Source: Oscillospiraceae bacterium (lineage in GTDB: Bacteria; Bacillota; Clostridia; Oscillospirales; Oscillospiraceae). Taken from it: 39,258 bases of DNA. The translations under genes and the position numbers were made by a program. Below are positions 15,411 through 38,286 of the stretch, one piece after another. The stretch lies in contig JAGBBD010000066.1 in NCBI GenBank assembly GCA_017938625.1, forward strand, positions 1 through 39,258. Direction: 5' to 3'. Under the pieces are notes generated by a model. The model was not told the DNA's origin, made no database searches, and worked only from the letters and a program-made list of their open reading frames with translations. Within the stretch, counting starts at the first letter, position 1, and each line of letters starts with the position of its first letter.

Positions 15411-15416
15411 TTTGCC

Positions 15417-16997: not shown

Positions 16998-17033
16998 GAA
17001 AAGGACTGCTTTGCAGGCTCAATTAGTAAGATA

Positions 17034-17076
17034 AATGCAGAAAAAGGTTAAATGCCTTTTTCTGCATTATTTTTTT
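17034..17076 (+). terminator. Terminator at the end of the obgE unit
   Basis: The 14-bp stem AATGCAGAAAAAGG (17034-17047) / CCTTTTTCTGCATT (17055-17068) is followed by ATTTTTTT. It marks the last host signal before the prophage-like genes. Confidence 0.92.
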
Positions 17077-17116
17077 ATCCAGATCAGGCAAGGAAAATAG
17101 AAACGAGGTGACAAAG

Positions 17117-17395: not shown

Positions 17396-17399
17396 GAAG

Positions 17400-18479: not shown

Positions 18480-18685
18480 ACAAAGAGCTGCGAGCTGACT
18501 ACACCCGCACGTGCGAAGGGTGCCCACACATCATTGAAGAAGCGTGGGACAAGGGCCGGATGTGCTTTCGGTGCTTCGCCCCGGGCCGCTGCCATGGGTA
18601 CGTTGTCGGCGTCGAGCGATACCTGCCATATATTCCGGCGTGGTGCCCGGAGCTGGCAAAGGAGGATTTATGTACGACGAATTGA
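18476..18685 (+). CDS. Small cysteine-rich phage protein
   Basis: 69 residues with cysteines in CEGCPH, CFRCF, RCHG and WCPEL. It starts with a GTG that overlaps the previous stop (GTGA) and has GGAGG upstream. No domain recognised; a metal-binding fold is likely. Confidence 0.65.
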   Translation: MNKELRADYTRTCEGCPHIIEEAWDKGRMCFRCFAPGRCHGYVVGVERYLPYIPAWCPELAKEDLCTTN

Positions 18686-19089
18686 TCGAGAGCTTACGCG
18701 CAGTGGATTTTATAGACTGTACCGATTACCCGGCAAACGTAATGAAAGATTGCGCGGACGCTGCTGCTGCCCTTGAGGCCATGAACAACATCCTGGAACA
18801 GGCCCGTGGCGAGCGGGATGCGGTGACGAAGCGGATGATTGAGCTGGAACAGACCACGGGAAAGCTGACCCGGGAGCGGGACGCTGCTGTGGCTGATCTT
18901 ACAAACATCATCGGTGAGATCGAGAGCGTCCGCCAGCGGTACGGCATCGACAATGCCGACGCCGACGAGGCCTTGTCTGATCTCTGCGGCGGCTACTGCG
19001 CCGCCAGCGGGAAGATGTGCTACAAAGAGGGGCTTGCCTTCCGGTGCGACAACTTCCGGTGGCGGGGAGCGGAGGAGGAACGAGTATGA
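18670..19089 (+). CDS. Coiled-coil phage protein with a C-terminal cysteine cluster
   Basis: 139 residues. The middle (about 30-85) is a long helix rich in E, R and L (LEQARGERDAVTKRMIELEQ), predicted to be a coiled coil; the C terminus has LCGGYCA, KMCYKE and FRCDNFRW. GGAGG (18661-18665) fixes the start at 18670, which overlaps the previous gene by 16 nt. Function unknown. Confidence 0.65.
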   Translation: MYDELIESLRAVDFIDCTDYPANVMKDCADAAAALEAMNNILEQARGERDAVTKRMIELEQTTGKLTRERDAAVADLTNIIGEIESVRQRYGIDNADADEALSDLCGGYCAASGKMCYKEGLAFRCDNFRWRGAEEERV

Positions 19090-19658
19090 CCAGCTTTGTG
19101 TTTATGTGGGAAGGCCCGGACGGCGAACGAAAGTGGGAAGCAGTAAAGAAAGGACAGACGGCGGGCTTTATGGAGAAACTTCTGACCGAGTACGGCGTAC
19201 ACCCGGCAACGGTGATGGTGGCCTATGCACCCATCCTGTTTCACTGGGTATGGAAGGAGTACCACAAAGGCCTATCCGATGTCAATTTCCACAATATCAA
19301 CGAGGAAATCTACGGCACGGAGCCTGCCGAGATCAGCAAGCACAAGCCTGTGGATGTTCCGGTGCGCGAAAAGCCGGTTGTAAAGTTTGGCTGGCTGGCA
19401 CCGGATGGCCGCTTTTTCAACTGCCAATATGGCGGCCACTCAAATCTTGCGGACAAAATCGTGGGCGACATTCAGTACATCGCAAACCCGGAGCGACATT
19501 TGGAGGAACTGGGATGGGCGAAGGTGTTGAGCGGCGGCGGTACAGGCAAGCAGTACGCTATCGGAATGGGTATCGAAAAGAAGCTGACGGACGCCCAGCT
19601 TAAAACGCTTCAACGCATGGAGCTGGACACGGCCTACGGCATATCTTATTTGCTTTGA
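19086..19658 (+). CDS. Phage protein of unknown function
   Basis: 190 residues, soluble, no recognised domain. Residues 1-65 (FVFMWEGPDG, FHWVWKEYHKGLSDVNF) and 105-190 (FGWLAPDGRFFNCQYGGHSNLADKI; ELGWAKVLSGG) look like two small alpha/beta units around a basic linker. The second half resembles phage proteins that open with WL(A/S)PDGTFY. It starts in an ATGA overlap with the preceding stop. Confidence 0.7.
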   Translation: MTSFVFMWEGPDGERKWEAVKKGQTAGFMEKLLTEYGVHPATVMVAYAPILFHWVWKEYHKGLSDVNFHNINEEIYGTEPAEISKHKPVDVPVREKPVVKFGWLAPDGRFFNCQYGGHSNLADKIVGDIQYIANPERHLEELGWAKVLSGGGTGKQYAIGMGIEKKLTDAQLKTLQRMELDTAYGISYLL

Positions 19659-22894: not shown

Positions 22895-22911
22895 TTGACA
22901 CAATATATTGT
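22895..22911. promoter_or_regulatory. TTGACA overlapping a 12-bp palindrome
   Basis: TTGACA (22895-22900) is fused to the palindrome ACAATATATTGT (22900-22911) in the 230-bp gap before the Rep-like gene. A -10 box at the right distance is not clear; it may be an operator or an origin-associated site. Confidence 0.4.
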
Positions 22912-22977
22912 ACCACAATGTGCAGCATAAGTCAATAGAGCAGCCACGGAGGCCGGGTGCCGCCGGGGTGAAGGTAG

Positions 22978-22995
22978 CGCAGCCGAAAGGCTGCG
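22978..22995. repeat. GAAA-loop hairpin upstream of the Rep-like gene
   Basis: A 7-bp perfect stem CGCAGCC / GGCTGCG closes on GAAA, 48 nt before the start codon at 23043. Confidence 0.6.
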
Positions 22996-23042
22996 ACCGG
23001 GCTTGTAATGGGTATTATCCTTGCTGCGAAAAGAGGGTACAG

Positions 23043-23858
23043 ATGGTAAACAGATCATTTATGCGGGAGAAGGTCATCCACTGTGGGAAGAACTACCTTG
23101 CCCCGGAGATATATCCGTACAGCGGACAGCAACAGCGGGCCGTGGGACGGAAGCGGGGCAAGAAACAGGCGGTTTCCTCTCCGAAACAGAAGAACCTCAA
23201 TGACCGGAGGGCAAAGCGGTATTTTGTGCAGCTTGCCAACAGCAACTTTGGAGCTGACGATCTGGCCGTCCATTTGAGCTACGCCCCGGAGTTCCTGCCG
23301 GAGACCGAGGAGGAAGCCATGAAGATCGTGACCAAGTATCTGCGCAGGGTGGCATATCAGCGGAAGAAAGAGGGCCTTCCCCCTCTCAAGTATCTGCTGG
23401 TGACACAGGTAGGCCGAAAAAAGAACGGCACCCACCGTCTGCATCATCATATCCTGATGAACGGCGGTTTAGACCGTGATACCGTGGAAAGTTTGTGGTG
23501 GAAGGTCAAAGGCACAAAGGAACGGGAGCCGGTCATGTACGGATGGGCCAATGCCGACCGCCTCAAGCCCAACAAGAAGGGCATCGCAAGCATGGCCGGA
23601 TACATGGTGCAGGACAGCGCCGGTAAGAAGCACTGGACACAATCGCAGAACCTTGAAAAGCCTTGGCACCGGAACCCCAACGACTGCAAATACACCCGCC
23701 GTCAGTTGGACAAGATCGGTAAGCTGCCAGAGGACAGCGAGGAGTTCAAGCGGTTTTGGGAAAAACAGTACCGAGGGTGGGAGCTGGTAGATTGCGAGAA
23801 GATGTTCAACGAGCAAACGGGATGGCATTTTTACCTGACCATGCGACGAGCGTGTTAG
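23043..23858 (+). CDS. HUH-type Rep-like protein (ORF2/G2P-like replication domain)
   Basis: 271 residues. The core resembles the replication-associated ORF2/G2P domain of rolling-circle Reps: VHLSYAPEFLPETEEEA (76-92), YLLVTQVGRKKNGTHRLHHH with the histidine cluster at 134-136 for metal binding, GGLDRDTVESLWWK, GWANADRLKPN, and AGYMVQDS with Y187 as candidate nicking tyrosine. Such enzymes cut one DNA strand and stay covalently attached. The start at 23043 has AGAGGG upstream; a longer frame to 22908 has no start signal and overlaps hairpins. It heads the HD-RecU sub-operon, so phage DNA replication is the likely role, though rolling-circle replication by this phage is inference. Confidence 0.75.
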   Translation: MVNRSFMREKVIHCGKNYLAPEIYPYSGQQQRAVGRKRGKKQAVSSPKQKNLNDRRAKRYFVQLANSNFGADDLAVHLSYAPEFLPETEEEAMKIVTKYLRRVAYQRKKEGLPPLKYLLVTQVGRKKNGTHRLHHHILMNGGLDRDTVESLWWKVKGTKEREPVMYGWANADRLKPNKKGIASMAGYMVQDSAGKKHWTQSQNLEKPWHRNPNDCKYTRRQLDKIGKLPEDSEEFKRFWEKQYRGWELVDCEKMFNEQTGWHFYLTMRRAC

Positions 23859-23880
23859 AAAACGGATTGGAGGAAACTGC

Positions 23881-24432
23881 ATGACAAACGAGGAAATCTT
23901 CAAAGAACTGTACCGGAAGCACATCCGGCGGGAGGGAGCCGAGGAGCTGCTGACCTGGCTGGAACAGGAGACAGACTTCTTTGAGGCACCGGCCAGCACA
24001 AAGCATCATCTGGCATACCCGGGCGGACTGGTTGAGCACAGTATCAACGTGTTCAAGGAGCTGCGGAAGGTGGTCATCGACAACGAGCCGACCATGGAAG
24101 CCGTGGCGATCTGTGCGCTGCTGCATGACATCTGCAAAGCGAATACATACGTGCGGGAGCATCATGCGGGGCCGGGGCCTGTTCTGGTCTACACCAAAAA
24201 GGACCAGTTTCCGTTTGGTCACGGGGAAAAGTCTGTGTTCCTGATCTGCCGGTACATGAAGCTGACCGAGGAGGAAGCCCTGGCAATCCGTTGGCACATG
24301 GGCGCGTGGGATGAAGCCGTAAGGGGTGGAAGCCGGGCGCTGAATGAGGCCATGGTGATGCACCGCGTCGTGTATGAGCTGCACGCGGCGGATATGCGGG
24401 CAACACACATCGCGGAGGCTGGTCTGGCATGA
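23881..24432 (+). CDS. HD-domain hydrolase
   Basis: 183 residues of an HD-superfamily phosphohydrolase. Metal ligands are visible at H53 (GGLVEHS), H82-D83 (LLHDICKAN), the GHGEKSV segment and RWHMGAWD. Many phages carry such a protein; it may act on (d)NTPs, nucleotides or signalling nucleotides, and the substrate is not predictable here. GGAGG lies 6 nt before ATG. It overlaps recU by 4 nt (ATGA). Confidence 0.85.
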   Translation: MTNEEIFKELYRKHIRREGAEELLTWLEQETDFFEAPASTKHHLAYPGGLVEHSINVFKELRKVVIDNEPTMEAVAICALLHDICKANTYVREHHAGPGPVLVYTKKDQFPFGHGEKSVFLICRYMKLTEEEALAIRWHMGAWDEAVRGGSRALNEAMVMHRVVYELHAADMRATHIAEAGLA

Positions 24433-24998
24433 AGAAACGACAAAGCGCGCTGGATAGATACCGGGCCAGCGTGAGCAACAACCGGGGCCATGACTTCGAG
24501 GAAGCAATCAAGCAGGCCTGCATTTTGTACGCCAGTCAAGGCCGGGCGAAGGTGGAAAAGACGCCGGAGCCGTTTCGTGTACTGGAAAAGCGGGAGGGCG
24601 GCATTTTTGTGGGCCGCTTCACCGCCCATGCGCAGCCGGACTTTCAAGGCACGCTGGATGGTGGCCGCAGCATCATCTTTGAGGCAAAGTACACCACCAC
24701 GGAGAGCATGAAGCGGGATGTGCTGACCGAAACACAGATGGAGACCTTGGAGGACCACCACCGGAAGGGTGCAATGGCCGGGGTCTGCGTGGGCATCCAG
24801 GACCGTTTCTTTTTCGTGCCCTGGGAGGTATGGCGGGACATGAAAAAATACATGGGCCGCCTGTATGTGACGGCGGAGGACCTGGAAGGCCTGCGGGTAC
24901 GGTTCACCGGCGCGGTCCTGTTTTTGGACTATGTACACAAAGTCGATGGCCGCTGGTTGAGCGGCGAAGAATGTGATATTGACAGATGGAGGAAATGA
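24429..24998 (+). CDS. recU: Holliday-junction resolvase RecU-like nuclease
   Basis: 189 residues with the RecU layout: NNRGHDFEEAI near the N terminus, a K-x-P-E-P-F stretch, then the nuclease core AQPDFQGTLDGGRSIIFEAKY holding the acidic and lysine metal-site residues, and the TQMETLEDHHRKGAMAGV helix. RecU resolves four-way junctions made in replication and recombination. Phage copies are common beside replication genes, as here with the Rep-like and HD proteins. The start is in an ATGA overlap. Confidence 0.87.
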   Translation: MKKRQSALDRYRASVSNNRGHDFEEAIKQACILYASQGRAKVEKTPEPFRVLEKREGGIFVGRFTAHAQPDFQGTLDGGRSIIFEAKYTTTESMKRDVLTETQMETLEDHHRKGAMAGVCVGIQDRFFFVPWEVWRDMKKYMGRLYVTAEDLEGLRVRFTGAVLFLDYVHKVDGRWLSGEECDIDRWRK

Positions 24999-26744: not shown

Positions 26745-26786
26745 AAAAATACCCCGGCGGGCCGTTGATCGCGGCTTGCCGGGGTA
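26745..26786. terminator. Terminator between converging prophage operons
   Basis: TACCCCGGC (26750-26758) pairs with GCCGGGGTA (26778-26786); on the minus strand the stem runs into ATTTTTG, so it chiefly ends the leftward operon. Bases 26560-26744 hold no gene that I can support, only a repeated CGAATAGCGC (two copies). Confidence 0.85.
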
Positions 26787-26810
26787 CGTTCGTTTTGTGG
26801 CGGTTTTTTG

Positions 26811-27020
26811 TTAGTCGGGGGTGTTGATCTCAAGGGGCTGGCCTTCGCGGGTCATGCGCTCAATGCAGGCTTGTAGGACGTAGGCCTGTACACTTTGCCC
26901 GGCGGCGGCTGCTGCTGCCCGGATGGCCGCGCCAACGGGCTTCATGGGGCGGGCGCTGATGCGGTCGCACTTGGCGTTGTATTTGTCGTTGCCACGGCGC
27001 TTGTATTCGGGAATTGCCAT
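26811..27020 (-). CDS. Small ribbon-helix-helix-like protein
   Basis: 69 residues. The pattern YNAKCDRISARPMKPVGAAI, then an alanine-rich helix and SVQAYVLQACIERM, looks like a ribbon-helix-helix (Arc/MetJ-type) DNA-binding fold and resembles small RHH proteins of Firmicutes mobile elements. GAGGAGG precedes the ATG. It is the last gene of the leftward operon; its dyad could in principle recognise the palindromic operators found at that operon's promoters, which is speculation. Confidence 0.65.
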   Translation of the reverse strand: MAIPEYKRRGNDKYNAKCDRISARPMKPVGAAIRAAAAAAGQSVQAYVLQACIERMTREGQPLEINTPD

Positions 27021-27023
27021 GGG

Positions 27024-27284
27024 TCACTCCTCCTCTGTTTTGTGGTCCGTCAGGTCGATCATTGTGATCTCTGGCGGCGGCGGGACCATTTTGTGATACA
27101 CGCCGTTTTCGTAATGCTCGTCGGTCACGCCGTCGTACCAGGTAATATCCCCGTGGCGGAGCTGTGCGGCCTCCATGCGCTGCCGGGCCTGATCTTCTGT
27201 GAAACCGTCGAAAATGTGGCGCGTGCCGTCGGCGAACTGGGCCACCAGACGGAACGCGGGAAAGACTTCTTGTGTTTTGTCCAT
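27024..27284 (-). CDS. Hypothetical protein with its own operator-controlled promoter
   Basis: 86 residues, soluble, opening MDKTQEVFPAFRLVAQFADG and ending in a proline run (MVPPPPEI) and acidic tail. No family recognised. Its start is preceded by CACAAAACGGAGG, and 22 nt upstream of the ATG is the -10 box of an internal promoter whose spacer is a palindromic operator. Three nt separate it from the RHH gene downstream. Confidence 0.65.
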   Translation of the reverse strand: MDKTQEVFPAFRLVAQFADGTRHIFDGFTEDQARQRMEAAQLRHGDITWYDGVTDEHYENGVYHKMVPPPPEITMIDLTDHKTEEE

Positions 27285-27305
27285 AGAGCATCCTCCGTTT
27301 TGTGT

Positions 27306-27334
27306 AGTATAACACGATGCCGTGTTGTTGTCTA
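27306..27334 (-). promoter_or_regulatory. Internal promoter of the leftward operon with operator in the spacer
   Basis: Minus-strand TAGACA (27334-27329), 17 nt, TATACT (27311-27306). The spacer contains ACACGATGCCGTGT (27312-27325), the same operator as at the operon's first promoter. Confidence 0.75.
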
Positions 27335-27348
27335 TGGGTTATTTTGGG

Positions 27349-27585
27349 TTAGCGTGGCTGGTAAACAGTGGCCGGGCGGGGTGCAGCCACGGCCTCCTTG
27401 CGGGTTTTGTAGATGGTCTGGCCGACCTCGGCGGCGGGATAATAGCGCTTGTAGTCGCACAGCTTGGCGTTCTTTTTGGTGGCGACGGAGAACCAGTCGC
27501 CGTGCCAGCTATCCAAATACCAGCGCTGCACGGTTCCGTCGCGCTCTTTTGTGTACAGGGGCGTGCCAATGGGAGCGATGAACAT
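27349..27585 (-). CDS. Small hypothetical protein
   Basis: 78 residues opening MFIAPIGTPLYTKERDGTVQ; aromatic and basic (WYLDSWHGDWF, CDYKRYY), likely a small beta-rich domain. The start is ATG 27585, 8 nt after GGAGG of the motif CACAAAACGGAGG; an earlier GTG would use that site itself. No family recognised. Confidence 0.6.
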   Translation of the reverse strand: MFIAPIGTPLYTKERDGTVQRWYLDSWHGDWFSVATKKNAKLCDYKRYYPAAEVGQTIYKTRKEAVAAPRPATVYQPR

Positions 27586-27607
27586 AGTTTGCACCTCCGT
27601 TTTGTGG

Positions 27608-27973
27608 TCAATGGGTGGGGCACTGAAACAGGACGTTCAGCGCGTGCTTTTTGGCAAGGCGGTTGATGCGGTCGGCGTTGGTGTTGCCCAGGGCGAACAC
27701 GGCGATAAAATTGACGTGGCAATCGTCCTCGGTAAAGATGGGCTTGCAGTCCACACCCAGCATCCGCAGGTGGGTCACGACGTTGGACATGGTCATAACC
27801 TCGTCCAGCGCGTCCAGGTAGCACTCTTTGTACAGGTCTGCGCCGTAGTGATCGCGGACAGCATCGAGCTTTTCCGTGTCGAACAGCTCAACAAAGGGTT
27901 CGTATTTGTGCGGGGCGTCCAGATGGGCCTTGATGATCTCGTTTCGGCAGGGCCAGTAACCGGCAGACTTCAT
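27608..27973 (-). CDS. Hypothetical protein
   Basis: 121 residues, soluble, with a helical middle (DAVRDHYGADLYKECYLDAL) and a strand-rich end (CHVNFIAVFALGNTNADRINRLA). Ribosome binding site AAAGGAC. No family recognised. The first of the repeated leader sequences lies directly upstream. Confidence 0.62.
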   Translation of the reverse strand: MKSAGYWPCRNEIIKAHLDAPHKYEPFVELFDTEKLDAVRDHYGADLYKECYLDALDEVMTMSNVVTHLRMLGVDCKPIFTEDDCHVNFIAVFALGNTNADRINRLAKKHALNVLFQCPTH

Positions 27974-28020
27974 TTTGTGTCCTTTCTGCCCTTTACCCTG
28001 GGCGGCGGGTTTTGTATGGG

Positions 28021-28062
28021 GTGCCGTCGCTTTGTCCGGTGCGGCGGCTCCAAGGTATCCGG
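28021..28062 (-). repeat. Intercistronic leader repeat, copy 1 (divergent)
   Basis: On the minus strand CGGATACCTT, then CGCACCGGACAAAGCGAC. It sits between the stop at 28068 and the start at 27973, the shortest and least similar to copies 2 and 3 in its flanks. Confidence 0.75.
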
Positions 28063-28067
28063 TTTTG

Positions 28068-29051
28068 TCAATTCAGGTTCAGGGCGCGGCGGGCGGCGCT
28101 TTCTGCGTTTTGGGTGAGCTGGCGCTGCCATGCGTTGTAGCGGGGAGACCAGCGGAAACCGTTGCTTTTCAGGGCGGCGCGGGTCTCCTCGTCGGGCTTC
28201 TCGTCAAAGAGGATTTGGAGGCGGTCGGCTTCCAGGTTGCGGACGATCTCGCCGCCGTCGAACTTTGTGCTTTCGGCGGGCTGGGCCTGCTGGGTCTGGC
28301 GCTGGTCCAGCTCGGCCAGGCGGGCCTCCACGCGCTTGATCTTGCCGCGCAGGCTGGTCAACTCATAGTCGGGCATGGGCTTTTGTGCCCAGCTATAAGA
28401 GCTGCTGATACTCTCGTTCATTTTGGCGGCGGTCGCGTCGGACAGCTCCGGGAAGCCCTTCATGGTTTTGTGTTTGCGATAGTAGGCGTTCATGGCCTTG
28501 CCGGTGTCCAGCTTGGATTGCAGGTTTTGGAGCTGATCTTGCAGCATCTCCCGGGCGTGAGGGTCGGCCAGATCGACCGCGCCGGTGCCCACGCTGCGGA
28601 TTTTGTCAAGGATGCTCTGGATGTCGTTGTATTCGTGCATGAGGGTGTCGCGGCGGGAGTTCTGCTTCTCCTTTTTGCGTACAGGGAAATTGGAGCCGCC
28701 GGAAACAAGGATTGAGGGGCAAGAGGCCTCGTTTCTGTAATAGTCGTTGTAGTAGGCGGCAAGGCGGCGGGCGTAGCGGTCCAGAAGGGCATCCAGTTTG
28801 TCGTGATAGAAGGGGCTGACGGCCTTTTTCTGGCGCTCCACCAGCTCGGCGGCCTGGTCCACGGCGGCCCGGTATTCTGCCGTTGCGCTGCCGGGCTTGT
28901 AGTCCCGCATAGAGTTCATGTCATTAGCTCGGCGGGCGGTCTCCTCGTTGATCTCGTAGTAGGTTTTTGTGGTCGGGGCCTGCTGGGTTTTGGTCTCCTC
29001 GGCGGCGGGTTCCTCCGCTGCTTGGTCGATCATGTTGATTTGTTCGTACAT
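28068..29051 (-). CDS. Large helical protein with a C-terminal GFRWS module
   Basis: 327 residues, largely helical (YRAAVDQAAELVERQKKAV; QDQLQNLQSKLDTGKAMNAY), with a C-terminal piece DEETRAALKSNGFRWSPRYN then AWQRQLT. That last module occurs at the end of antirestriction/ArdC-like and related mobile-element proteins in Firmicutes. The N-terminal 40 residues are low-complexity and acidic. GGAGG 7-11 nt upstream. Role unknown; a counter-defence or replication-associated function is inference from the company it keeps. Confidence 0.7.
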   Translation of the reverse strand: MYEQINMIDQAAEEPAAEETKTQQAPTTKTYYEINEETARRANDMNSMRDYKPGSATAEYRAAVDQAAELVERQKKAVSPFYHDKLDALLDRYARRLAAYYNDYYRNEASCPSILVSGGSNFPVRKKEKQNSRRDTLMHEYNDIQSILDKIRSVGTGAVDLADPHAREMLQDQLQNLQSKLDTGKAMNAYYRKHKTMKGFPELSDATAAKMNESISSSYSWAQKPMPDYELTSLRGKIKRVEARLAELDQRQTQQAQPAESTKFDGGEIVRNLEADRLQILFDEKPDEETRAALKSNGFRWSPRYNAWQRQLTQNAESAARRALNLN

Positions 29052-29072
29052 GGTGCGTTCCTCCTTTTTGGG

Positions 29073-29135
29073 TTTTGTGGCCGGTGGCCTGGGGTCGGGT
29101 CGCTTTGTCCGGTGCGGCCCGCGAAGGTATCCGGG
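29073..29135 (-). repeat. Intercistronic leader repeat, copy 2
   Basis: 63 nt that match copy 3 at 62 positions. Minus strand contains GGATACCTTCGCGGGCCGCA, CCGGACAAAGCGACCC and CCACCGGCCACAAAA. GGCCG and CGGCC within it can pair. It lies between a stop (29142) and a start (29051). Confidence 0.9.
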
Positions 29136-29141
29136 CGGGGG

Positions 29142-29714
29142 TCAATCCATCTGGCAATATGTGAGGGCGTCATATCCCATCTCCCGCAGTGCTTTTGTCA
29201 TAGCCTCGGCGGCGGTCTCGACTTTGCAGGCCTGGCCGGGAATGGGGAAGCATATCACAAAGCGATTGAAGCAGCTCCACTTGAAGCAGCCGCCGCCCGC
29301 CTCCTTGCAAGCCTGTTCGACTTTGGCGGCGTTCCATCTTGTGAGGCGGAGCGCGGGCGCGTCCATGTTGCAAGTGCCGGTGTCCTCCACCTGGGCGGCG
29401 GCCTCCTGGCCGATTTTGTAAACGGCGCGGAGATCGTCGCGGAGCTGGGCATATTTGCCGGTCAGGGGTTTTGTATCCGGTTTTGTGGCCGGGGTTACAT
29501 AGCGGTCATAAAGCCGATTGTAGGCGCTGCGGGCCTCGTCCAGGCTGTAAGCGTCGATCATGGCAAGCTCCCCGCCGCCGGTGCGAAGGGCGGCAACCTC
29601 GAAGCGGTCCGGGGCGATCTCGGCGGCGTCAATGATGATGTGAACGCCGTTTTTGTCGGGGCCTGCATAGTGCAGATCGGCGGTGTTTTGGTGGGCGCGT
29701 TCGTATGCTGTCAT
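29142..29714 (-). CDS. Hypothetical protein
   Basis: 190 residues. N-terminal strand-rich part (GVHIIIDAAEIAPDRFEVAAL), central helices, and a C-terminal region with GGGCFKWSCFNRFVICFPIPG and four cysteines. It ends KALREMGYDALTYCQMD. GGAGG is 8 nt before ATG. No domain recognised; it resembles proteins found in operons of Firmicutes conjugative and phage elements. Confidence 0.65.
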   Translation of the reverse strand: MTAYERAHQNTADLHYAGPDKNGVHIIIDAAEIAPDRFEVAALRTGGGELAMIDAYSLDEARSAYNRLYDRYVTPATKPDTKPLTGKYAQLRDDLRAVYKIGQEAAAQVEDTGTCNMDAPALRLTRWNAAKVEQACKEAGGGCFKWSCFNRFVICFPIPGQACKVETAAEAMTKALREMGYDALTYCQMD

Positions 29715-29735
29715 GGTGTTCTACCTCCTGTTTTG

Positions 29736-29942
29736 TTAAATAACTGCGTCGTCAGCGGTGACAATGCAAACGCCGCGTTTCCCGCTGATGTATTCGTTAC
29801 CGCCCTCGTCGGAGTAGTGCTTGCAACCGCTGTGCTTCTTTTTGCCGGTGAAATCGTCGCGGGTGTATTCCCATTCCGGGCGGCGGGTCAGCTTGCCGAC
29901 GATCTCAAAACCGACGCTTTTTGCATACTCTCGAATGGTCAT
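29736..29942 (-). CDS. Small conserved hypothetical protein
   Basis: 68 residues opening MTIREYAKSVGFEIVGKLTR, then a WEYTRDDFTGKKKHSGCKHY segment and a strand-rich end. A helix-turn-strand mini-domain of unknown role. Start preceded by CACAAAACGGAGG. Copy 3 of the leader repeat is directly upstream. Confidence 0.62.
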   Translation of the reverse strand: MTIREYAKSVGFEIVGKLTRRPEWEYTRDDFTGKKKHSGCKHYSDEGGNEYISGKRGVCIVTADDAVI

Positions 29943-29965
29943 CTTGTATAACCTCCGTTTTGTGT

Positions 29966-30028
29966 TTTTGTGGCCGGTGGCCTGGGGTCGGGTCGCTTTG
30001 TCCGGTGCGGCCCGCGAAGGTGTCCGGG
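29966..30028 (-). repeat. Intercistronic leader repeat, copy 3
   Basis: Differs from copy 2 at a single base over 63 nt (GGACACC in place of GGATACC on the minus strand). It lies between the stop at 30036 and the start at 29942. Confidence 0.9.
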
Positions 30029-30035
30029 GTCCGTA

Positions 30036-30953
30036 TCAGGCGACGCGGACATAGAACGCGGATTTTTTGTTGCTCCATTTTGCGCCTGCTGCCTTGATGG
30101 CGTCGGCGTGCTTCTCGGTCTCACCGGCCAGCCATACCACCGGCGCGGCGGTCTGTGCGCCCTTGATGGTAGCGGTGACGCCTTCCAGGCCTGCGAAGCG
30201 GGCCGCGATCAGCTCGGCGGCGGTTTTGGGTTCGGGCTTCTCGTTGACGGGTTCGGCCTGGGGAGCGCTGCGCAGGGCTTCCAGCTCGGCGGCCTGCTGG
30301 GCGATCTGTGCCCGGAGTGCTTCGATCTCGTCTTGTGCCTGGGCGATCTCGGCCCGGGCGGCGGTCAGCTTGTCGCGGAGCTTGTCGGCCTCGGCGGCGG
30401 TTTTGGTTTTGTCGGCCTGGGTGAAATAGGCCTTGACGGCCTCGGCGGGTTTGGTCTCGGGGCGGATGGGCATGACCATGGCGAACGGCTCACCGTCCAT
30501 ATAAGCCACAGCGCCGGAGGTGGCACCGGCGGCGCGGAAGGTAGCGCCGGGATGCAGGGCGGAAATATACTTGCAGTTGTAGAAGGCTGCAAAATCCTTG
30601 TCGGCGCTGTAATAGCTCCATGCAAGGGCCTTTTCCGTGTCCAGGTTCAGCGGGCAGCGGGTCAGCGTTCCGCCGGTCTCGGCGGCCTTGGTGGCGTCGG
30701 TGAAGATTTTCACGGCGTCGAACGTGGCCCCGTCCTGCTTCTCGCCGTTGGTGATCGTCCAGTTGCCAGGCTCGCAGCAGGTGACGGGCTGCGCGGCTGC
30801 GGCGTATTCTGCGCCGGTCATCTTGTACAGAACGTAGCCGGTACAGATGTAAATTGTGCCGTCGTCGGCGGTGCGGCAGATGATCTTGTCGGAGCCTTTC
30901 AGGGCCTTTGTTGCGTCGGGGGTGTAGTTGCCCATAACCTTGATTTTTTTCAT
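30036..30953 (-). CDS. Hypothetical protein with coiled coil and C-terminal GAKWS module
   Basis: 305 residues. Residues 1-170 form a globular part (DKIICRTADDGTIYICTGYV; WSYYSADKDFAAFYNCKYIS); 190-235 a coiled coil (KLRDKLTAARAEIAQAQDEI); the C-terminal 60 end with KHADAIKAAGAKWSNKKSAF, resembling the last module of the 28068-29051 protein. GGAGG lies 9 nt upstream. I cannot name the family; similar proteins occur in Firmicutes mobile elements. Confidence 0.67.
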   Translation of the reverse strand: MKKIKVMGNYTPDATKALKGSDKIICRTADDGTIYICTGYVLYKMTGAEYAAAAQPVTCCEPGNWTITNGEKQDGATFDAVKIFTDATKAAETGGTLTRCPLNLDTEKALAWSYYSADKDFAAFYNCKYISALHPGATFRAAGATSGAVAYMDGEPFAMVMPIRPETKPAEAVKAYFTQADKTKTAAEADKLRDKLTAARAEIAQAQDEIEALRAQIAQQAAELEALRSAPQAEPVNEKPEPKTAAELIAARFAGLEGVTATIKGAQTAAPVVWLAGETEKHADAIKAAGAKWSNKKSAFYVRVA

Positions 30954-30973
30954 GTCGTTTGACCTCCAAAAAG

Positions 30974-31051
30974 TTTTTGTTTGGCCCTGTCGGGCTGGGG
31001 CTGGGTTGCTTTGTGCGGTGCAGCCCTGCTAAAGTATCCGCTTGCCGGGGT
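30974..31051 (-). repeat. Intercistronic leader repeat, copy 4 (divergent)
   Basis: Minus strand GGATACTTTAGCAGGGCTGC, CACAAAGCAACCCAGCCCC, then CAAACAAAAA before GGAGG. GGGCTG replaces GGGCCG and CAGCCC replaces the CGGCC partner, a possible compensatory change. Confidence 0.75.
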
Positions 31052-31465
31052 TCAGCGCTTGGACTTTTCGACCTGTAAGGCGTTGAAAAGGTGAGCTTTT
31101 GCCATGTAAAAATGCGGGTCGCTCTCGGGGGCATCTTCACCGGCAGCGGCGGCAGCTTCTCGGGTGGCCTTGCCGGGCTTGTCGGTGTACTTCCAGAGAT
31201 TGCACACAAGCGCGGCGTGCTGGCCCTTCTTCACGCTGAACCCCATGCGCTTCCACTCTGCGAAGGTGTGGAAAGTTTCGGCGGCCAGCATGGCGTTAAA
31301 ATAATCGTCGGCGTTGGCGTCGCTTCCCTCGGGGATGGTGATTGTTACGCTCGCCCGGCGGGCGGTGATCTTCTCGGCGGGGTAGATTGCACTGACCAGC
31401 TCGGCAAGCTGGGCGGGAGTGAAGGAGCTGCGGACGGTCTCGAAAATGATTTCGTTGTTAGTCAT
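31052..31465 (-). CDS. ArdC N-terminal-like protein, first gene of the leftward operon
   Basis: 137 residues. The stretch TFAEWKRMGFSVKKGQHAAL then VCNLWKY is like the ssDNA-binding domain of ArdC-type antirestriction proteins (W..LGf.VrKGekg...v..w), without the metallopeptidase part. The start is ATG 31465 with AAAGGA upstream; a frame open further upstream merely crosses the operators. It is the first gene behind the operator-controlled promoter at 31541-31570. An antirestriction role is inference. Confidence 0.62.
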   Translation of the reverse strand: MTNNEIIFETVRSSFTPAQLAELVSAIYPAEKITARRASVTITIPEGSDANADDYFNAMLAAETFHTFAEWKRMGFSVKKGQHAALVCNLWKYTDKPGKATREAAAAAGEDAPESDPHFYMAKAHLFNALQVEKSKR

Positions 31466-31510: not shown

Positions 31511-31524
31511 ACACGGTGCCGTGT
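31511..31524. promoter_or_regulatory. Operator, downstream site
   Basis: ACACGGTGCCGTGT, two 6-bp arms around TG, about 10 nt downstream of the predicted start of leftward transcription. Confidence 0.75.
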
Positions 31525-31540: not shown

Positions 31541-31570
31541 ACTGTAACACGGTGCCGTGTCGTTTGTCAA
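31541..31570 (-). promoter_or_regulatory. Main promoter of the leftward operon with operator in the spacer
   Basis: Minus-strand TTGACA (31570-31565), 18 nt, TACAGT (31546-31541). The spacer is filled by ACACGGTGCCGTGT (31547-31560), identical to the downstream site 36 bp away. Confidence 0.78.
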
Positions 31571-33199: not shown

Positions 33200-33997
33200 A
33201 TGCCGAAGCGGAGCGAAAAGCGGGACGCCGCCAAGGCTGAATACCTCGCCCGGAAAAGCCGGGGTGAACAGGTTGATCTCCAAGCGCTGGCGGAGAGCCT
33301 GGGCGTGAAGTACCAGACTTTGCGAAACTGGAAGTCGGCGGATGAATGGGAGAAGGCACTGCCAAAGAAAAAGCGCGGCGGCCAGCCGGGAAACCAGAAC
33401 AGCGCCGGACATAAAAACGCCGCCGGGAGCCACAAGGGCGCACCGGCAGGCAATAAGAACGCGGAAAAGGATGGAGCTTACAGCGCCATCTTTTTTGATA
33501 TGTTGACCGAGGCCGAGCGGGAACTGATGGAAAAGACGCCGGTGGGCAGCCGGGCGGCTCTGGAACACGAGATGCAGATACTCAAGTTCCGGGAGCACCG
33601 GATACTCACCAAGATCGCGGAATACGAAGCGGCCCCGGAGGACGAGCTGTACCTGAACAGCGTGCTTGATATGCGCGTGCCCGGCGGCAGGGGCGACCAG
33701 CGGAATGATGGTGCCCGGCAGCAGATGGGAATGTACAGCAAGGACAGCGCCTTTGCCCGGGCGATGAAGTTGCAGGACGCACTCTACAAGGTGCAGGGCC
33801 GTATCGCCAAGATCGCGGACAGCCTGCGGGCGCTGGAAGAAAACGAGAAACGGCTGGAACTGGAAAAGGCCAGACTGGAAATCCTGCGGATGCGGGCGAC
33901 GGGCGTGGTGGAGACACCGGACCCGGAGATCGACGAGGACGGCGTGGATGCGCCGGAGCGGGACCTGGAAGGCCTTGACTGTGAGGAGGGCCTATGA
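33200..33997 (+). CDS. Terminase small subunit, PBSX type
   Basis: 265 residues. The N terminus is a helix-turn-helix (LAESLGVKYQTLRNWKSADEW), followed by the low-complexity linker GGQPGNQNSAGHKNAAGSHK and GNKNAEKDGAYSAIFF, which is the signature of PBSX-type phage terminase small subunits (PF10668-like). The rest is helical. It would recognise phage DNA for packaging. Start ATG 33200 follows AAAGGGGG. It overlaps a second small-terminase-like gene by 4 nt (ATGA). Confidence 0.82.
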   Translation: MPKRSEKRDAAKAEYLARKSRGEQVDLQALAESLGVKYQTLRNWKSADEWEKALPKKKRGGQPGNQNSAGHKNAAGSHKGAPAGNKNAEKDGAYSAIFFDMLTEAERELMEKTPVGSRAALEHEMQILKFREHRILTKIAEYEAAPEDELYLNSVLDMRVPGGRGDQRNDGARQQMGMYSKDSAFARAMKLQDALYKVQGRIAKIADSLRALEENEKRLELEKARLEILRMRATGVVETPDPEIDEDGVDAPERDLEGLDCEEGL

Positions 33998-34473
33998 AGC
34001 TCTATACAAGTAAGGTCGTAGCCGACTGGCTGGGACTGACGGAGCGGCGGGTGCGCCAGCTCCGGGACGAGGGCATCATTGAAGAACATTCGCCCGGCCT
34101 CTACGATCTGCGCGCCACCACGCGCCGGTATATCTCCTACCTGCGGAGCGGCAGCCTTGCCGACGAGCGGGCGCGGCTGACCAAAGCAAAGCGCGAGGCG
34201 GCGGAGATGGAGAACGATCTGCGCCGGGGCGAGCTGCACAGGACGGACGAGATCGAGGCCGGAATTAAGACCATGCTTTTGAATATTCGCGGGCGCTTCC
34301 TGTCCCTGCCTGCGAAGTTATCTCCCGCGCTGGCTACCATGGGAGGAGATCAGGCCAGCATTTTCGACGAGCTGAAAAAGGCCATCGACGAAACGCTTGA
34401 GGAGCTGCGGGATTTCAACGTGGCCTTTGCGATGCGGGAGGAAGATGGAGATGGAGAAGAAAAAGAAACATAA
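33994..34473 (+). CDS. Terminase small subunit, Nu1-like
   Basis: 159 residues with an N-terminal winged helix (TSKVVADWLGLTERRVRQLR, then DEGII and LYDLRATTRRYISYLR) as in lambda gpNu1, a charged linker helix (RLTKAKREAAEMENDLRRGE) and a C-terminal helix pair that would contact the large subunit. gpNu1 binds cosB next to cos. Its pairing with a GpA-type large terminase just downstream is the expected lambda arrangement, while the preceding PBSX-type gene is extra. Confidence 0.85.
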   Translation: MKLYTSKVVADWLGLTERRVRQLRDEGIIEEHSPGLYDLRATTRRYISYLRSGSLADERARLTKAKREAAEMENDLRRGELHRTDEIEAGIKTMLLNIRGRFLSLPAKLSPALATMGGDQASIFDELKKAIDETLEELRDFNVAFAMREEDGDGEEKET

Positions 34474-34615
34474 ATGCGAGGGGTGCATTTGGAAGCTGTG
34501 GGCGGGCGAGGGAAAAGTTGTGTGTATGTTCCCGAAGTGCCGCAGGGCAGCGTATGAACGCATTTGGCTGAAACAGCGAAGTGAGGTCCATGAGAAAAAA
34601 GACCAGGACAGTTAA
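34451..34615 (+). CDS. 54-residue cysteine-rich phage protein
   Basis: Opens MEKKKKHKCEGCIWKLWAG and has a second cysteine pair in VCMFPKCRR; a basic, probably zinc-binding mini-protein. ATG 34451 is 9 nt after GGAGG, better spaced than ATG 34445. It overlaps the Nu1-like gene by 23 nt and the large terminase by 26 nt. Confidence 0.6.
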   Translation: MEKKKKHKCEGCIWKLWAGEGKVVCMFPKCRRAAYERIWLKQRSEVHEKKDQDS

Positions 34616-36428
34616 GTTAGCGCCGCAGACGGCGGAGATGTTTGCCCGCTGCGTGGCGGTGCTGACGCCGCCCCCGGAGCTTACCCTGTCCCAGTGGGCG
34701 GATACCTACCGGATGTTGAGCGCGGAAAACAGCGCCGCGCCAGGACGGTGGCACACGGACAACGCGCCGTATCAGCGCGAGATCATGGACGCCATTGGCG
34801 ACCCTCATGTGCGCAAGGTGGTGGTGAAGACCGCCGCGCAGATCGGCAAGACGGCCATGCTGATGAATATGCTGGGCTACTATATGCACTACTTCCCGGC
34901 ACCGGTTCTGGTCATGCAGCCTACGCTCGACATGGCACAGACCTTCTCCAAGGATTTCCTCGCTCCCATGATACGAGATACGCCGGTGCTGCGGGTGCTG
35001 GTAGACACCAAAAGCCGATACTCCGGCAACACAATACTGAAAAAGAACTTTCCGGGCGGACACGTGACCATCATCGGCGCGAACAGCCCGGCGAGCCTTG
35101 CCAGCCGACCGATCAAGGTTGTGCTGTGCGACGAGGTGGACCGCTATCCGGCCAGCGCCGGTACAGAAGGCGACCCCCTGCTGCTGGCCCAAAAGCGACA
35201 GACCACCTTTTGGGACAAGAAAACGGTCATCGTTTCGACGCCGACCATCAAGGGCAGCAGCCGAATTGAGACCGAGTTTCAGGAGACCACCCGGGAAGAA
35301 TGGAACGTGCCGTGCCCAAAGTGCGGCCACTACCAGCCTTTGCGGTGGGCCAACATCGTATTTGACCGGAACGACCTGACAAAGGGCATCCGGCACAGAT
35401 GCGAGCGCTGCGGCGAGGAGAGCGGAGAATACGCCTGGAAGGCGCAGGAGATCAACGGGCGCTTTGTGGCGGAAAACCCGGGCGCGGCAGCAAGAGGCTT
35501 CCACCTGAATACCCTGGCATCCACCTTCTGCGGATGGCATGAGGTTGTGGAAAAGTTTCTGCTTGCCAAGGAGCTGCTGGACCAGGGCGACCCGGAGAAG
35601 ATGAAAACCTGGGTCAATACCGAGCTGGGCGAGACCTGGGAGGAGCCGGGCGAGCGGCTTGAGGATACCGAGCTGGTGAACCGACGCGAAATCTATGACG
35701 CACAGGTGCCGGAGGGCGTTCTGGTGCTGACGGCGGGCGTAGACGTTCAGGATGACCGCTTTGAGGTGGAAGTCGTGGGCTGGGGCGTCGGCAAGGAGAG
35801 CTGGGGCATCCGTTATCAGAAGATATACGGCGATATGCTGAAAGAACAGGTGTGGCGCGATCTGGACGACTTCCTGATGACGCCGTTCTACAAGAAGGAC
35901 GGGACGCAGCTTTCCATCCTATGCACCTGCATCGACAGCGGCGGACACCACACCGACCAGGTGTACCGCTTCACCAAAGAGCGGTACGAGCGCCGCATAT
36001 TCGCCATCAAGGGCAAGGGCGGGCAGGAGGTTCCCTACCTGCGCAATCCGTCCACCAACAACCGCGTCAAGACGCCGCTGTTCATCATCGGCGTAGACGC
36101 AGGCAAGGCCCTTTTGTACCAGAGATTGAAGCACGAAACCAAGGGACCGAACTACTGCCACTTCCCGCTGAACGAGGAAGCCGGATACGACGAGCAATAC
36201 TTCCGGGGACTGACCAGCGAGAAAATGGTGGTGCGCTTCCGCAAGGGGCGCAGCGTAGTGGTATGGGAGATCAAGGACGCGAGCTACAAGAGAAACGAGC
36301 CGCTGGACCTGCGCAACTATGCCACCGCCGCCCTGGAAATCGCAAACCCGGTGCTGCAAAGATCGGAGCAGGACGTGGAGCGGAGGCCAAGAACAACGGG
36401 ACGCCGACGCTTGAGTGGAGGTATTTGA
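34590..36428 (+). CDS. Phage terminase large subunit, GpA family
   Basis: 612-residue packaging motor and nuclease of the lambda gpA family (PF05876). The ATPase half has the Walker A-like TAAQIGKT (81-88), Walker B VVLCDEVDRYP (177-187) and the coupling STPT (216-219); a zinc knuckle follows (CPKCGH, C242/C245 and CERCGE, C271/C274); the nuclease half starts at AGVDVQDDRFEVEV with metal-site D386 and continues to CIDSGGHHTDQV and the ENXX-like GLTSEKMVVRF region. The start at ATG 34590 is chosen over GTG 34581, which overlaps the ribosome binding site. Next gene starts 1 nt after its stop. Confidence 0.95.
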   Translation: MRKKTRTVKLAPQTAEMFARCVAVLTPPPELTLSQWADTYRMLSAENSAAPGRWHTDNAPYQREIMDAIGDPHVRKVVVKTAAQIGKTAMLMNMLGYYMHYFPAPVLVMQPTLDMAQTFSKDFLAPMIRDTPVLRVLVDTKSRYSGNTILKKNFPGGHVTIIGANSPASLASRPIKVVLCDEVDRYPASAGTEGDPLLLAQKRQTTFWDKKTVIVSTPTIKGSSRIETEFQETTREEWNVPCPKCGHYQPLRWANIVFDRNDLTKGIRHRCERCGEESGEYAWKAQEINGRFVAENPGAAARGFHLNTLASTFCGWHEVVEKFLLAKELLDQGDPEKMKTWVNTELGETWEEPGERLEDTELVNRREIYDAQVPEGVLVLTAGVDVQDDRFEVEVVGWGVGKESWGIRYQKIYGDMLKEQVWRDLDDFLMTPFYKKDGTQLSILCTCIDSGGHHTDQVYRFTKERYERRIFAIKGKGGQEVPYLRNPSTNNRVKTPLFIIGVDAGKALLYQRLKHETKGPNYCHFPLNEEAGYDEQYFRGLTSEKMVVRFRKGRSVVVWEIKDASYKRNEPLDLRNYATAALEIANPVLQRSEQDVERRPRTTGRRRLSGGI

Positions 36429-36429
36429 T

Positions 36430-36666
36430 ATGGCAGTTTTTAGCAAGGAACTGTGTCAAAGAAAACTGAATACCTGGCTGGCGGCGGAGGAAGCCGTGGC
36501 GACCGGCCAGAGCTACCAGATCGGAACACGTATGCTGACGCGGGCCGACCTGAAACAAATCAGGGCGCAGATGGAATACTGGGCGGGCAAGCTGACCGAA
36601 GCCGAAGCCGCCGAGAAGCACGGCGGCAGGAACCGCCTGTACCGCTTTGTGCCCCGTGACGTGTAA
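36430..36666 (+). CDS. Small head-tail joining (gpW / DUF6148-like) protein
   Basis: 78 residues with a helical N half (FSKELCQRKLNTWLAAEEAV) and the segment GQSYQIGTRMLTRADLKQIR typical of gpW/DUF6148 proteins that sit between terminase and portal and help join the tail to filled heads. GGAGG is upstream at 36417-36421. The position is exactly as in lambda (A-W-B). Confidence 0.85.
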   Translation: MAVFSKELCQRKLNTWLAAEEAVATGQSYQIGTRMLTRADLKQIRAQMEYWAGKLTEAEAAEKHGGRNRLYRFVPRDV

Positions 36667-36675
36667 GGAGGGGCC

Positions 36676-38286
36676 ATGGCGAAGAACTTTATCGACCGAT
36701 GCGTGGAGGCGGTGGCCCCGGTCCACGCGCTGCGCAGAAGCGCGGCCAGATCGGCGCTGCAATTCGTGAACAGCGGATATGGAAACTACGGGGCCAACCT
36801 GACAAAAAAGAGTATGCGGGGCTGGGAATACCACGGTGGCAGCTCCAAGGAGGACATCGAGGACAACATCGACGTACTCCGCCAGAGAAGTCGAGACGCC
36901 TACATGGGCGTGCCCGTGGCAACATCGGCCCTCAAAACCCTGCGGACCAACGTGGTTGCGGGCGGTCTGGTGCCTGCGCCGCAGATCGACGGCGAATACC
37001 TGGGGCTGACGGCGGAGCAGACGGAGGAGCTGCAAGAGCAGATCATCCGGGAGTTCTCCCTGTGGGCCGACACCACGGACTGCGACATGGACGGGCTGGG
37101 CAACTTCTACAAGCTGCAACAGCTCGCCTATATGGGCTACCTGATGAATGGTGACGCCTTCGCCACCTTGCCCGTGAGCGAGCGGGTGGGCCAGCCGTAT
37201 AACCTGCGCGTGCGGGTGATGGAAGCGGACCGGGTATGCAGCCCGGACGGTTACGACAGACTGGTGCCCTGCGAGGTCTACGGCCACCAGGTACACAGCA
37301 TCATTCAGGGCGTGGAAATCAACGAGGAGGGGCTGGTGGTAGCCTACTGGGTATGCAACCGGCATCCTCTGTCCAACAGCTCCGTAACGCCTGCGAGCCT
37401 GAAATGGACGCGGGTGGAAGCACGCGGAGCCTTGAGCGGGCGGCGTAACATCGTCCACGTTATTACCCGGGAGCGGGCGGGGCAGCTTCGCGGCGTACCC
37501 ATTCTGGCACCGGTGCTGGAAGCGCTCAAACAGCTTGGCAGATACACAGAGGCCGAGATCAACGCGGCGGTCATCTCCGCCATGTTTACGGTGTTCGTGC
37601 AGCCGCAGTCGGCAACGGATGATCGGCCTTTCGGTGAGATGCTGCCGGACAATGAGCTGATCGACGCCGCAGACCCCAGCACGATTGAGCTGGGAAGCGG
37701 CGCAATCGTGGGGCTGAACCCGGGCGAGACCGTGGCCTTTGCCGACCCGAAGCACCCCAACGCCGGGTATGACAAGTTCACCGACGCCATGATTAAACAG
37801 ATCGGGTCTGCACTGGAAATCCCGCCGGAGGTCATGGTGAAGATGTTCTCCACAAGTTACAGCGCAGCACGCGGCGCGCTGAACGAGTTCTGGCGCTCCT
37901 GCGGCGTCCAGCGCGACGACTTTGTGGACAGCTTTTGCCAGCCTATCTATGAGGAGTGGCTGGCGGAGGCGGTGGCCCGGGGCCGCATCAAAGCGCCGGG
38001 CTTCTTCCAGGACCCGGCGATCAGGAAAGCATATTGCGGGTGTGTATGGCCGGGACCGGCCCGCACCAGTCTGAACCCTGTGCAGGAAGTGTCCGCCGCC
38101 TTGAAGCGCGTGGACGCAGGTTTCTCCACGGCCCAGGAGGAAACCGCCCAAATGACGGGCGGCAACTACAACCGCAACATCCGGCAGCGGGTGGCGGAGG
38201 CCAAGAGAAAGCAGGAAGTGGACGAGATCATCAAACCGGCAACCGCCGCCCAGGAAGGCGGCCCCGGGAACGAAGGAGGAAATTAA
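36676..38286 (+). CDS. Phage portal protein, lambda gpB family
   Basis: 536 residues forming the dodecameric portal at the DNA-entry vertex. Family features: KKSMRGWEYHGGSSKEDI, the long helix with DVLRQRSRDAYMGVPVATSA, LKTLRTNVVAGGLVPAPQID, ERVGQPYNLRVRVMEADRVC, VITRERAGQLRGVPILAPVL and IGSALEIPPEVMVKMFSTSY. Length and order match PF05136 portals. AGGAGGGG upstream. The stop lies 1 nt before the protease start. Confidence 0.95.
   Translation: MAKNFIDRCVEAVAPVHALRRSAARSALQFVNSGYGNYGANLTKKSMRGWEYHGGSSKEDIEDNIDVLRQRSRDAYMGVPVATSALKTLRTNVVAGGLVPAPQIDGEYLGLTAEQTEELQEQIIREFSLWADTTDCDMDGLGNFYKLQQLAYMGYLMNGDAFATLPVSERVGQPYNLRVRVMEADRVCSPDGYDRLVPCEVYGHQVHSIIQGVEINEEGLVVAYWVCNRHPLSNSSVTPASLKWTRVEARGALSGRRNIVHVITRERAGQLRGVPILAPVLEALKQLGRYTEAEINAAVISAMFTVFVQPQSATDDRPFGEMLPDNELIDAADPSTIELGSGAIVGLNPGETVAFADPKHPNAGYDKFTDAMIKQIGSALEIPPEVMVKMFSTSYSAARGALNEFWRSCGVQRDDFVDSFCQPIYEEWLAEAVARGRIKAPGFFQDPAIRKAYCGCVWPGPARTSLNPVQEVSAALKRVDAGFSTAQEETAQMTGGNYNRNIRQRVAEAKRKQEVDEIIKPATAAQEGGPGNEGGN

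Follow-up and report, generated by a model that had tools for sequence, protein, structure and literature searches.

Why should one strand of a G+C-rich phage operon be strewn with a single A-rich word? The question is raised by a leftward operon at 26790-30985 (G+C 0.602) of a 39,258-nucleotide (nt) stretch from an Oscillospiraceae bacterium (GenBank assembly GCA_017938625.1, contig JAGBBD010000066.1), hereafter the window; the region is part of a prophage. An earlier note on this DNA had called the operon GC-rich, had listed 26 copies of the hexamer ACAAAA on its messenger RNA (mRNA) strand, within and between genes, and had seen none on the opposite strand. Indeed, a copy stands within 4 nt of each of the 26 positions, and two that were missed (26793 and 26806) bring the count of TTTTGT on the plus strand, that is of ACAAAA on the minus strand, to 28, with no ACAAAA on the plus strand of the same interval. 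The whole window holds 46 TTTTGT and 16 ACAAAA on its plus strand.

No hexamer of the operon strand is more enriched than ACAAAA (28 copies against 2.6 expected under a first-order Markov model); a fourth-order model, into which the pentamers ACAAA and CAAAA are already built, expects 26. For comparison we took at most 20 kb, in one stretch, from each of 20 of the genome's 68 contigs, 285,636 bases in all, and the densest 4,196-base single-strand stretch of this host sample holds eight copies. Sixteen of the operon copies lie in coding sequence and 12 do not lie wholly within it (two past the last gene, one across a start codon); the copies between genes proved to be a recurring feature of leaders. 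The hexamer is real, is largely explained and is of modest interest alone. The better finding is an arrangement of a known kind with a candidate ribozyme class: RAGATH-5 elements at four gene junctions, in slots where related operons also carry twister-sister and hammerhead ribozymes.

RAGATH-5 elements ahead of four genes

Four leaders of the operon carry an RNA element of the RAGATH-5 family (RF02685, typed as a ribozyme by Rfam), which the note had passed over. All four lie on the mRNA strand, 5-10 nt past a stop codon and 31-36 nt ahead of the next start codon; gene sizes are given in amino acids (aa):

30989..31041, minus strand: RAGATH-5 copy 1, leader of the 305-aa gene (61.9 bits, gathering score 50)
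29976..30027, minus strand: RAGATH-5 copy 2, leader of the 68-aa gene (59.2 bits)
29083..29134, minus strand: RAGATH-5 copy 3, leader of the primase-like gene (61.2 bits)
28010..28062, minus strand: RAGATH-5 copy 4, divergent, leader of the 121-aa gene (46.4 bits, under the gathering score, E 2e-5)

Copies 1 to 3 match the family across all 53 positions and pass its cut-off; copy 4 falls slightly under it. A cmscan search of the whole window returned RAGATH-5 only, with no match to twister-sister or hammerhead, and no further RAGATH-5 was found in the source genome, which is 71% complete. A RAGATH-5 match was present in eight of 300 genomes from the bacterial family, a set that contains the source genome, and in seven of the eight it lay above the cut-off. 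The BASRCI414 match (E 0.59) was taken as chance. We also built a model, R1, from 17 elements; as these include the window's four, the R1 scores of the window copies are not independent.

The cmscan structure line draws RAGATH-5 as a single hairpin and cannot depict pseudoknots. To this picture our set adds a 4-bp pseudoknot and a frequent hairpin past the CCCCA box. In 56 distinct cores (among the matches listed) the 5' tetramer pairs with the hairpin-loop tetramer after GCA. Positions 3 and 4 of this pseudoknot are invariant. Position 2 is C-G in 54 cores and G-C in two (both TGGG with CCCA, in loci L161 and L181, which have different hairpins), and position 1 is G-C in 17, C-G in 24, U-A in two and A-U in one. 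At positions 1 and 2 together, 100 of 112 cells are paired, compared with 75.6 +- 3.4 and never more than 89 in 5000 shuffles; the strength of this covariation is overstated because the shuffling ignores relatedness. One step outside the pseudoknot 10 of the 56 cores pair, and one step inside it is A-A throughout. A simple search found the hairpin past the CCCCA box in 32 of the 56 cores; within the window it reads GCCC/GGGC in copy 1 and GGCC/GGCC in copies 2 and 3, and copy 4 is without it. Hairpin covariation was assessed over 16 distinct rows: four of eight pairs change on both sides and four never vary, with 93.6% of cells paired, and the pair at columns 15/43 is unpaired in 7 of 13.

Exchange with twister-sister and hammerhead at gene junctions

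Related operons were fetched by the primase-like protein (27 loci from genomes, 15 from viral contigs) and by a RAGATH-5 pattern scan of viral contigs, which gave at least 120 stretches; the RAGATH-5 set is a sample. R1 matched 20 of the 120 pattern-scan loci listed (14 of 95 and 6 of 25), the other 100 being without a match. Gene calls outside the window came from simple scripts (an ATG with a Shine-Dalgarno-like word) and are not curated. Many gene junctions of the near relatives (L001-L009, L028-L037 and L042) carry twister-sister, which reaches seven copies in L042; hammerhead II occurs in L001, and RAGATH-5 in L005, L008, L028 and L030. No ribozyme family reached its cut-off in L010-L025 or L038-L041.

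Loci L029, L033 and L035 were dropped as copies or near-copies of L002, L006 and L034, and the elements of L093, L135, L187 and L083 as copies of those in L030, L028 and L171. We gathered 126 elements, comprising 71 twister-sister, 50 RAGATH-5 (among the matches listed) and five hammerhead II; 100 of them had a gene called on both sides, and these flanking genes were clustered into families. The resulting junction table is also without the RAGATH-5 of L068, L069, L071, L072 and L074-L077 (3-kb pieces), the low-scoring L085 and L129, and a partial twister-sister at the end of L032.

More than one element class is found at four junctions, a junction being defined by the gene families on its two sides. 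Between the ardC-like and 305-aa families (F01 and F02) stand eight RAGATH-5 (the window, L028 and six pattern-fetched loci) and one hammerhead II (L001); between F04 and the primase-like family F00, three twister-sister and two RAGATH-5; and between F01 and F11, one hammerhead II (38.0 bits, cut-off 37) and one RAGATH-5. The remaining junction is a double element in L116. The slot upstream of F00 holds 14 twister-sister, seven RAGATH-5 (five from pattern-fetched loci) and one hammerhead II, or 14, two and one when only the window and the protein-fetched loci are counted; L009 has the primase-like gene with no element counted directly in front. After the 305-aa homologue of L028 (77% identical) comes a twister-sister in place of the window's RAGATH-5; then follow a gene that differs from the window's and one that is 88% identical. 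The median gap between element and start codon is 33 nt for twister-sister, 35 nt for RAGATH-5 and 27 nt for hammerhead II; that between stop codon and element is 2, 9 and 8 nt in the same order. Exchange with established ribozyme classes at orthologous sites, as found here, supports a self-cleaving ribozyme and does not by itself define one.

Slot exchange is already known as a route to ribozymes. In the available part of PMC8216279, hammerhead and twister are described as apparently interchangeable at some locations, and searching such regions gave hatchet, pistol and twister-sister. The new part is the application to RAGATH-5 at orthologous junctions. RAGATH-5 reportedly came out of the same region search as hatchet, pistol and twister-sister. 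A literature search that left out most subscription papers found no paper on RAGATH-5 activity; the subject of PMC8191799 and PMC11507696, in the portions available, is RAGATH-18, not RAGATH-5, and what is said here of the original RAGATH study draws in part on PMC8216279 and PMC6154101.

Two observations stand beside these counts. In L116 (3195-3320) a RAGATH-5 at 3203 has immediately behind it a match to twister-sister (3245-3299; 34.8 bits, cut-off 34). By eye, this twister-sister keeps its 3' half and misses its middle part; the alignment shows the shared 3' half and places the 5' part poorly. L116 may possibly represent a stage of turnover, with RAGATH-5 lying against a shortened twister-sister remnant. 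Separately, a DUF3800-VIII RNA (RF03075) lies opposite the operon strand in L005, L007, L009, L037, L083 and L174.

A/C-rich spacers ahead of the Shine-Dalgarno sequence

At least one ACAAAA is present in 8 of 9 operon leaders, compared with 6 of 173 leaders in the host sample and 1 of 27 elsewhere in the window. Nine copies fall within 45 nt upstream of a start codon, mostly in A/C-rich spacers beside the Shine-Dalgarno sequence; of these, the copy at 27038 is also coding, and that at 28010 lies at the 3' edge of RAGATH-5 copy 4 and not in a Shine-Dalgarno spacer. Of the rows below, the fourth and fifth come from the junction list and the last from the junction list and motif scans:

30954..30988, minus strand: A-rich spacer, ACAAAA at 30975, then GGAGG
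29943..29975, minus strand: A/C-rich spacer, ACAAAA at 29958 and 29966, then GGAGG
29052..29082, minus strand: A/C-rich spacer, ACAAAA at 29073, then GGAGG
29715..29735, minus strand: leader (A)CAAAAC-AGGAGG without a RAGATH-5 element, ACAAAA at 29731
27586..27607, minus strand: leader ACAAAAC-GGAGG without a RAGATH-5 element, ACAAAA at 27600
27285..27348, minus strand: leader ACAAAAC-GGAGG with an internal promoter-like site and an operator-like palindrome

Across the related operons, the spacer from element to Shine-Dalgarno sequence is A 0.50 and C 0.36 after twister-sister (n=54; CAAAA in 45), A 0.42 and C 0.27 after RAGATH-5 (n=41; CAAAA in 21), and A 0.58 and C 0.25 after hammerhead II (n=5; CAAAA in 4, ACAAAA in 4). 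We compared leaders, and lysine codons below, in 17 near relatives and 13 distant ones. Where relatives bear ribozymes, 76 of 131 leaders contain CAAAA; in distant relatives without ribozymes, 17 of 128 do. The leaders of L191 and L193 contain ACGAAA 10 and 8 times, and ACAAAA twice each. These two loci (8363-12274 in L191, 2710-7516 in L193) hold six and seven RAGATH-5 elements, with an ACGAAA-type spacer replacing ACAAAA.

A model for the operon message

We infer that RAGATH-5, a candidate self-cleaving ribozyme, cuts the polycistronic prophage RNA at four gene junctions, in parallel with what twister-sister and hammerhead ribozymes would do in the sister operons. We think it reasonably probable that the operon mRNA is cut in this way into gene-sized pieces with an unstructured spacer at the head of each. 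For the more general proposal, that RAGATH-5 is a small class of self-cleaving ribozyme (its hairpin loop pairing with the 5' strand, NCGG:CCGN) exchanged slot by slot with twister-sister and hammerhead, we put the chances as evenly balanced. The spacer is A/C-rich and G/U-poor (ACAAAA, CCAAAA), usually lies between element and Shine-Dalgarno sequence, and is predicted to be single-stranded in a message of 60% G+C (predicted unpaired fraction 0.89 at ACAAAA sites compared with 0.50 on average). It may aid ribosome loading in a standby or A-rich enhancer role, and most genes without a RAGATH-5 element share the same spacer type. ACAAAA would then recur in leaders because these are A/C-rich initiation spacers. 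Since the word varies and its openness is unremarkable, we see in it the form that an unstructured initiation spacer takes locally, and not a fixed recognition word.

Ribozyme-cut prophage transcripts have precedent. In the part of PMC3088659 available, prophage transcripts with multiple hammerheads have several self-cleaving RNAs flanking single genes, one set next to an anti-restriction gene. In the window, by comparison, the slots hold RAGATH-5 as a putative cutter, and those of its relatives hold mainly twister-sister (RF02681), which is absent from the window, stands at equivalent junctions of the sister operons and is followed there by an A/C-rich spacer. In E. coli, an A-rich sequence upstream of starts promotes initiation (PMC7043885). 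The A-rich initiation sequences and ribosome standby sites of PMC7043885 and PMC3936740, in so far as the accessible parts of both describe them, likewise place an A-rich leader upstream of the start; the operon leader, however, is A/C-rich and is coupled to a strong Shine-Dalgarno sequence and often to ribozyme-type elements.

Several observations weigh against such a model. Slot sharing demonstrates an equivalent position, not catalysis. Position 1 of the pseudoknot is unpaired in 12 of the 56 cores, and copy 4, already under the family cut-off, precedes a gene without a clear A/C spacer by its Shine-Dalgarno sequence. The exact hexamer is present in just 18 of 54 twister-sister spacers and 17 of 41 RAGATH-5 spacers, and the latter are less A/C-pure (A+C 0.69 against 0.86), perhaps in part from the Rfam model ending inside the following hairpin. 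Other hexamers of five A and one C are as open (0.91) as the ACAAAA sites, and the 30 nt before starts are barely more open than coding sequence (0.59 against 0.49). In an E. coli reporter, according to the accessible part of PMC7043885, changing A to C abolished expression and A to U reduced it, so a C-rich spacer need not act like an A-rich enhancer. Finally, some coding excess persists under a context-keeping codon null (below), and that null is silent on the cause of the codon preference it retains.

The equal openness of ACAAAA and its sister hexamers would also be expected if the pattern were purely translational or compositional, A-rich unstructured stretches being favoured, and RAGATH-5 were a protein- or ligand-binding leader and not a ribozyme. 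Many positions outside the hairpin stem are invariant across 17 RAGATH-5 sequences, which would likewise suit a binding site. However, the slots, the spacing and the flanking gene families match those of two established ribozyme classes, and up to seven copies per locus (L193) would be ill-suited to a metabolite sensor. We regard this combined reading as unlikely, though worth keeping in mind, and favour cutting by RAGATH-5. The exchange at orthologous junctions together with the covarying pseudoknot gives a concrete structure, and natural side-by-side constructs, for probing the proposed cleavage by RAGATH-5, and in the operon family one could ask what effect it has to cut a phage message at its gene junctions.

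Coding copies and the lysine codon habit

The 16 coding copies read NAC-AAA-A in ten cases, ACA-AAA in five and NNA-CAA-AA in one. The earlier statement that they fall in all three frames is nominally true (frame 0: 5, frame 1: 10, frame 2: 1), with frame 2 represented by a single copy. Its corollary, that codon choice does not explain them, holds in part. Plain synonymous swaps fail, giving 5.2 +- 1.8 copies with a maximum of 12, so that 0 of 3000 shuffles reach 16 and all stay under the 20 copies at which the note had drawn its line. A null that also keeps the base following each codon, however, lifts the expectation to 10.9, and 10 of 3000 shuffles reach 16, a value further weakened because the hexamer was picked after seeing the data. 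Under the same null the count also exceeds expectation elsewhere in the window (14 against 7.6) and in the host sample (78 against 60.6), so the residual coding excess is not peculiar to the operon; it is a lower bound, since a context-keeping null absorbs part of any real signal.

The operon uses AAA for lysine in 25 of 32 codons before A and 6 of 30 before C. The corresponding fractions are 0.48 and 0.33 in the host sample, 236 of 382 and 81 of 329 in ribozyme-bearing relatives, and 201 of 400 and 73 of 251 in distant relatives. CAAAA runs arise in coding sequence because lysine is written AAA before A and AAG before C, a habit of the operon family that would supply roughly half of the coding copies. 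This AAA-before-A habit accounts for about half of the coding excess; what is left over is modest and not confined to the operon.

Could ACAAAA nevertheless be a dedicated word, its 28 copies being the sites where the leftward transcript is coated by a protein of the element that binds RNA or, strand-specifically, DNA? The earlier note had proposed a nucleic-acid signal, possibly for an RNA-binding protein or a DNA-binding one with strand specificity. ACAAAA ranks first among hexamers not only overall but also by synonymous-swap z in the operon coding sequence, and the residual excess under the context-keeping null would fit such a word. Where residues are conserved the hexamer is kept in 26 of 30 cases, 18 of which are one protein motif, HKT (8 of 11 without it), and coding and leader counts are weakly correlated over 30 operons (rho 0.44, p 0.015; rows not independent). 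Yet CCAAAA and CAAAAC are likewise in excess over synonymous swaps, and in the pooled coding sequence of 17 relatives (the coding-swap tests exclude L010-L027 and L038-L041 as distant, partial or short) ACAAAA comes sixth by z among many words (86 against 38.7). Homologous operons hold fewer copies (20 in L028, 11 in L001, 4 in L002), its rank among near relatives runs from 1 (L028) down to 583 (L002), L191 and L193 show ACGAAA in its place, and L009 shows both; it is not conserved as the same word. The 13 coding sites alignable with relatives at 55% identity or more lie mostly at residues that are not conserved, so the conservation of coding copies is weakly informative. We discarded the idea of a parallel shift of leader and coding word from ACAAAA to ACGAAA between lineages, for which the ACAAAA correlation is weak and that for ACGAAA is not significant (rho 0.26, p 0.16, the same 30 operons). 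Among the operon proteins, which were scanned against Pfam and PHROGs only, no candidate protein or co-occurring RNA-binding gene was identified. The proposal was set against first-order Markov, codon-permutation, synonymous-swap and context-keeping nulls, and what survives of it is the coding excess over synonymous swaps and the leader feature; with other words enriched and the hexamer not conserved in relatives, a dedicated word seems improbable.

Pure codon or composition bias with chance clustering, for which the mild excess over synonymous swaps in the host sample (78 against 50.6) and the rest of the window (14 against 6.5) might speak, is scarcely credible given 16 operon coding copies against 5.2, eight of nine leaders with the word, and the host-sample maximum of eight per 4.2-kb strand.

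Prophage setting, genes and regulatory sites

Terminase subunits and portal lie on one side of the operon, and a replication initiator and a Holliday junction resolvase on the other (33200-38286 and 22908-24998, plus strand), and it is this gene content that identifies a prophage. Of nine open reading frames from 3063-19603 that were compared with PHROGs, eight were without a match at E 0.001. Those relatives of the operon that bear organism names are mostly clostridial. The genes are as follows:

31052..31465, minus strand: first gene, 137 aa, ArdC N-terminal-like (Pfam ArdcN E 4.9e-4, 20.7 bits, under the cut-off of 22.6; phrog_34979 E 2.8e-29, unknown function)
30036..30953, minus strand: 305-aa gene, function unknown (gene call, PHROGs scan)
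29736..29942, minus strand: 68-aa gene, no family match in Pfam or PHROGs
29142..29714, minus strand: 190-aa gene, phrog_23592, function unknown
28068..29051, minus strand: 327-aa primase-like gene (phrog_19458, labelled primase, E 1.4e-129; no Pfam match)
27608..27973, minus strand: 121-aa gene, no family match in Pfam or PHROGs; 79% relative in L028
27349..27585, minus strand: 78-aa gene (gene call, PHROGs scan)
27024..27284, minus strand: 86-aa gene, phrog_29799
26811..27020, minus strand: 69-aa gene, phrog_13890; weak NikA/ParD-type matches under cut-off

For most operon proteins the Pfam scan gave no function. By eye, the 327-aa and 305-aa proteins appear to resemble each other in a W-containing C-terminal segment.

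Sites that may regulate the operon were as follows:

31541..31570, minus strand: operon promoter-like site TTGACA-18-TACAGT (consensus match only)
27334-27306, minus strand: internal promoter-like site, in the leader 27285..27348
26750..26786: strong inverted repeat, terminator-like, past the last gene (listed for the plus strand; ATTTTT directly after it on the minus strand)

The sequence ACACGGCANCGTGT has three perfect minus-strand copies, at 31547-31560, 31511-31524 and 27312-27325, which are possibly operators of a prophage repressor. A scan allowing two mismatches gave six matches at four places, compared with 1.1 expected, and two of the three perfect copies lie inside promoter-like sites (31570-31541 and 27334-27306), in the spacer of each.

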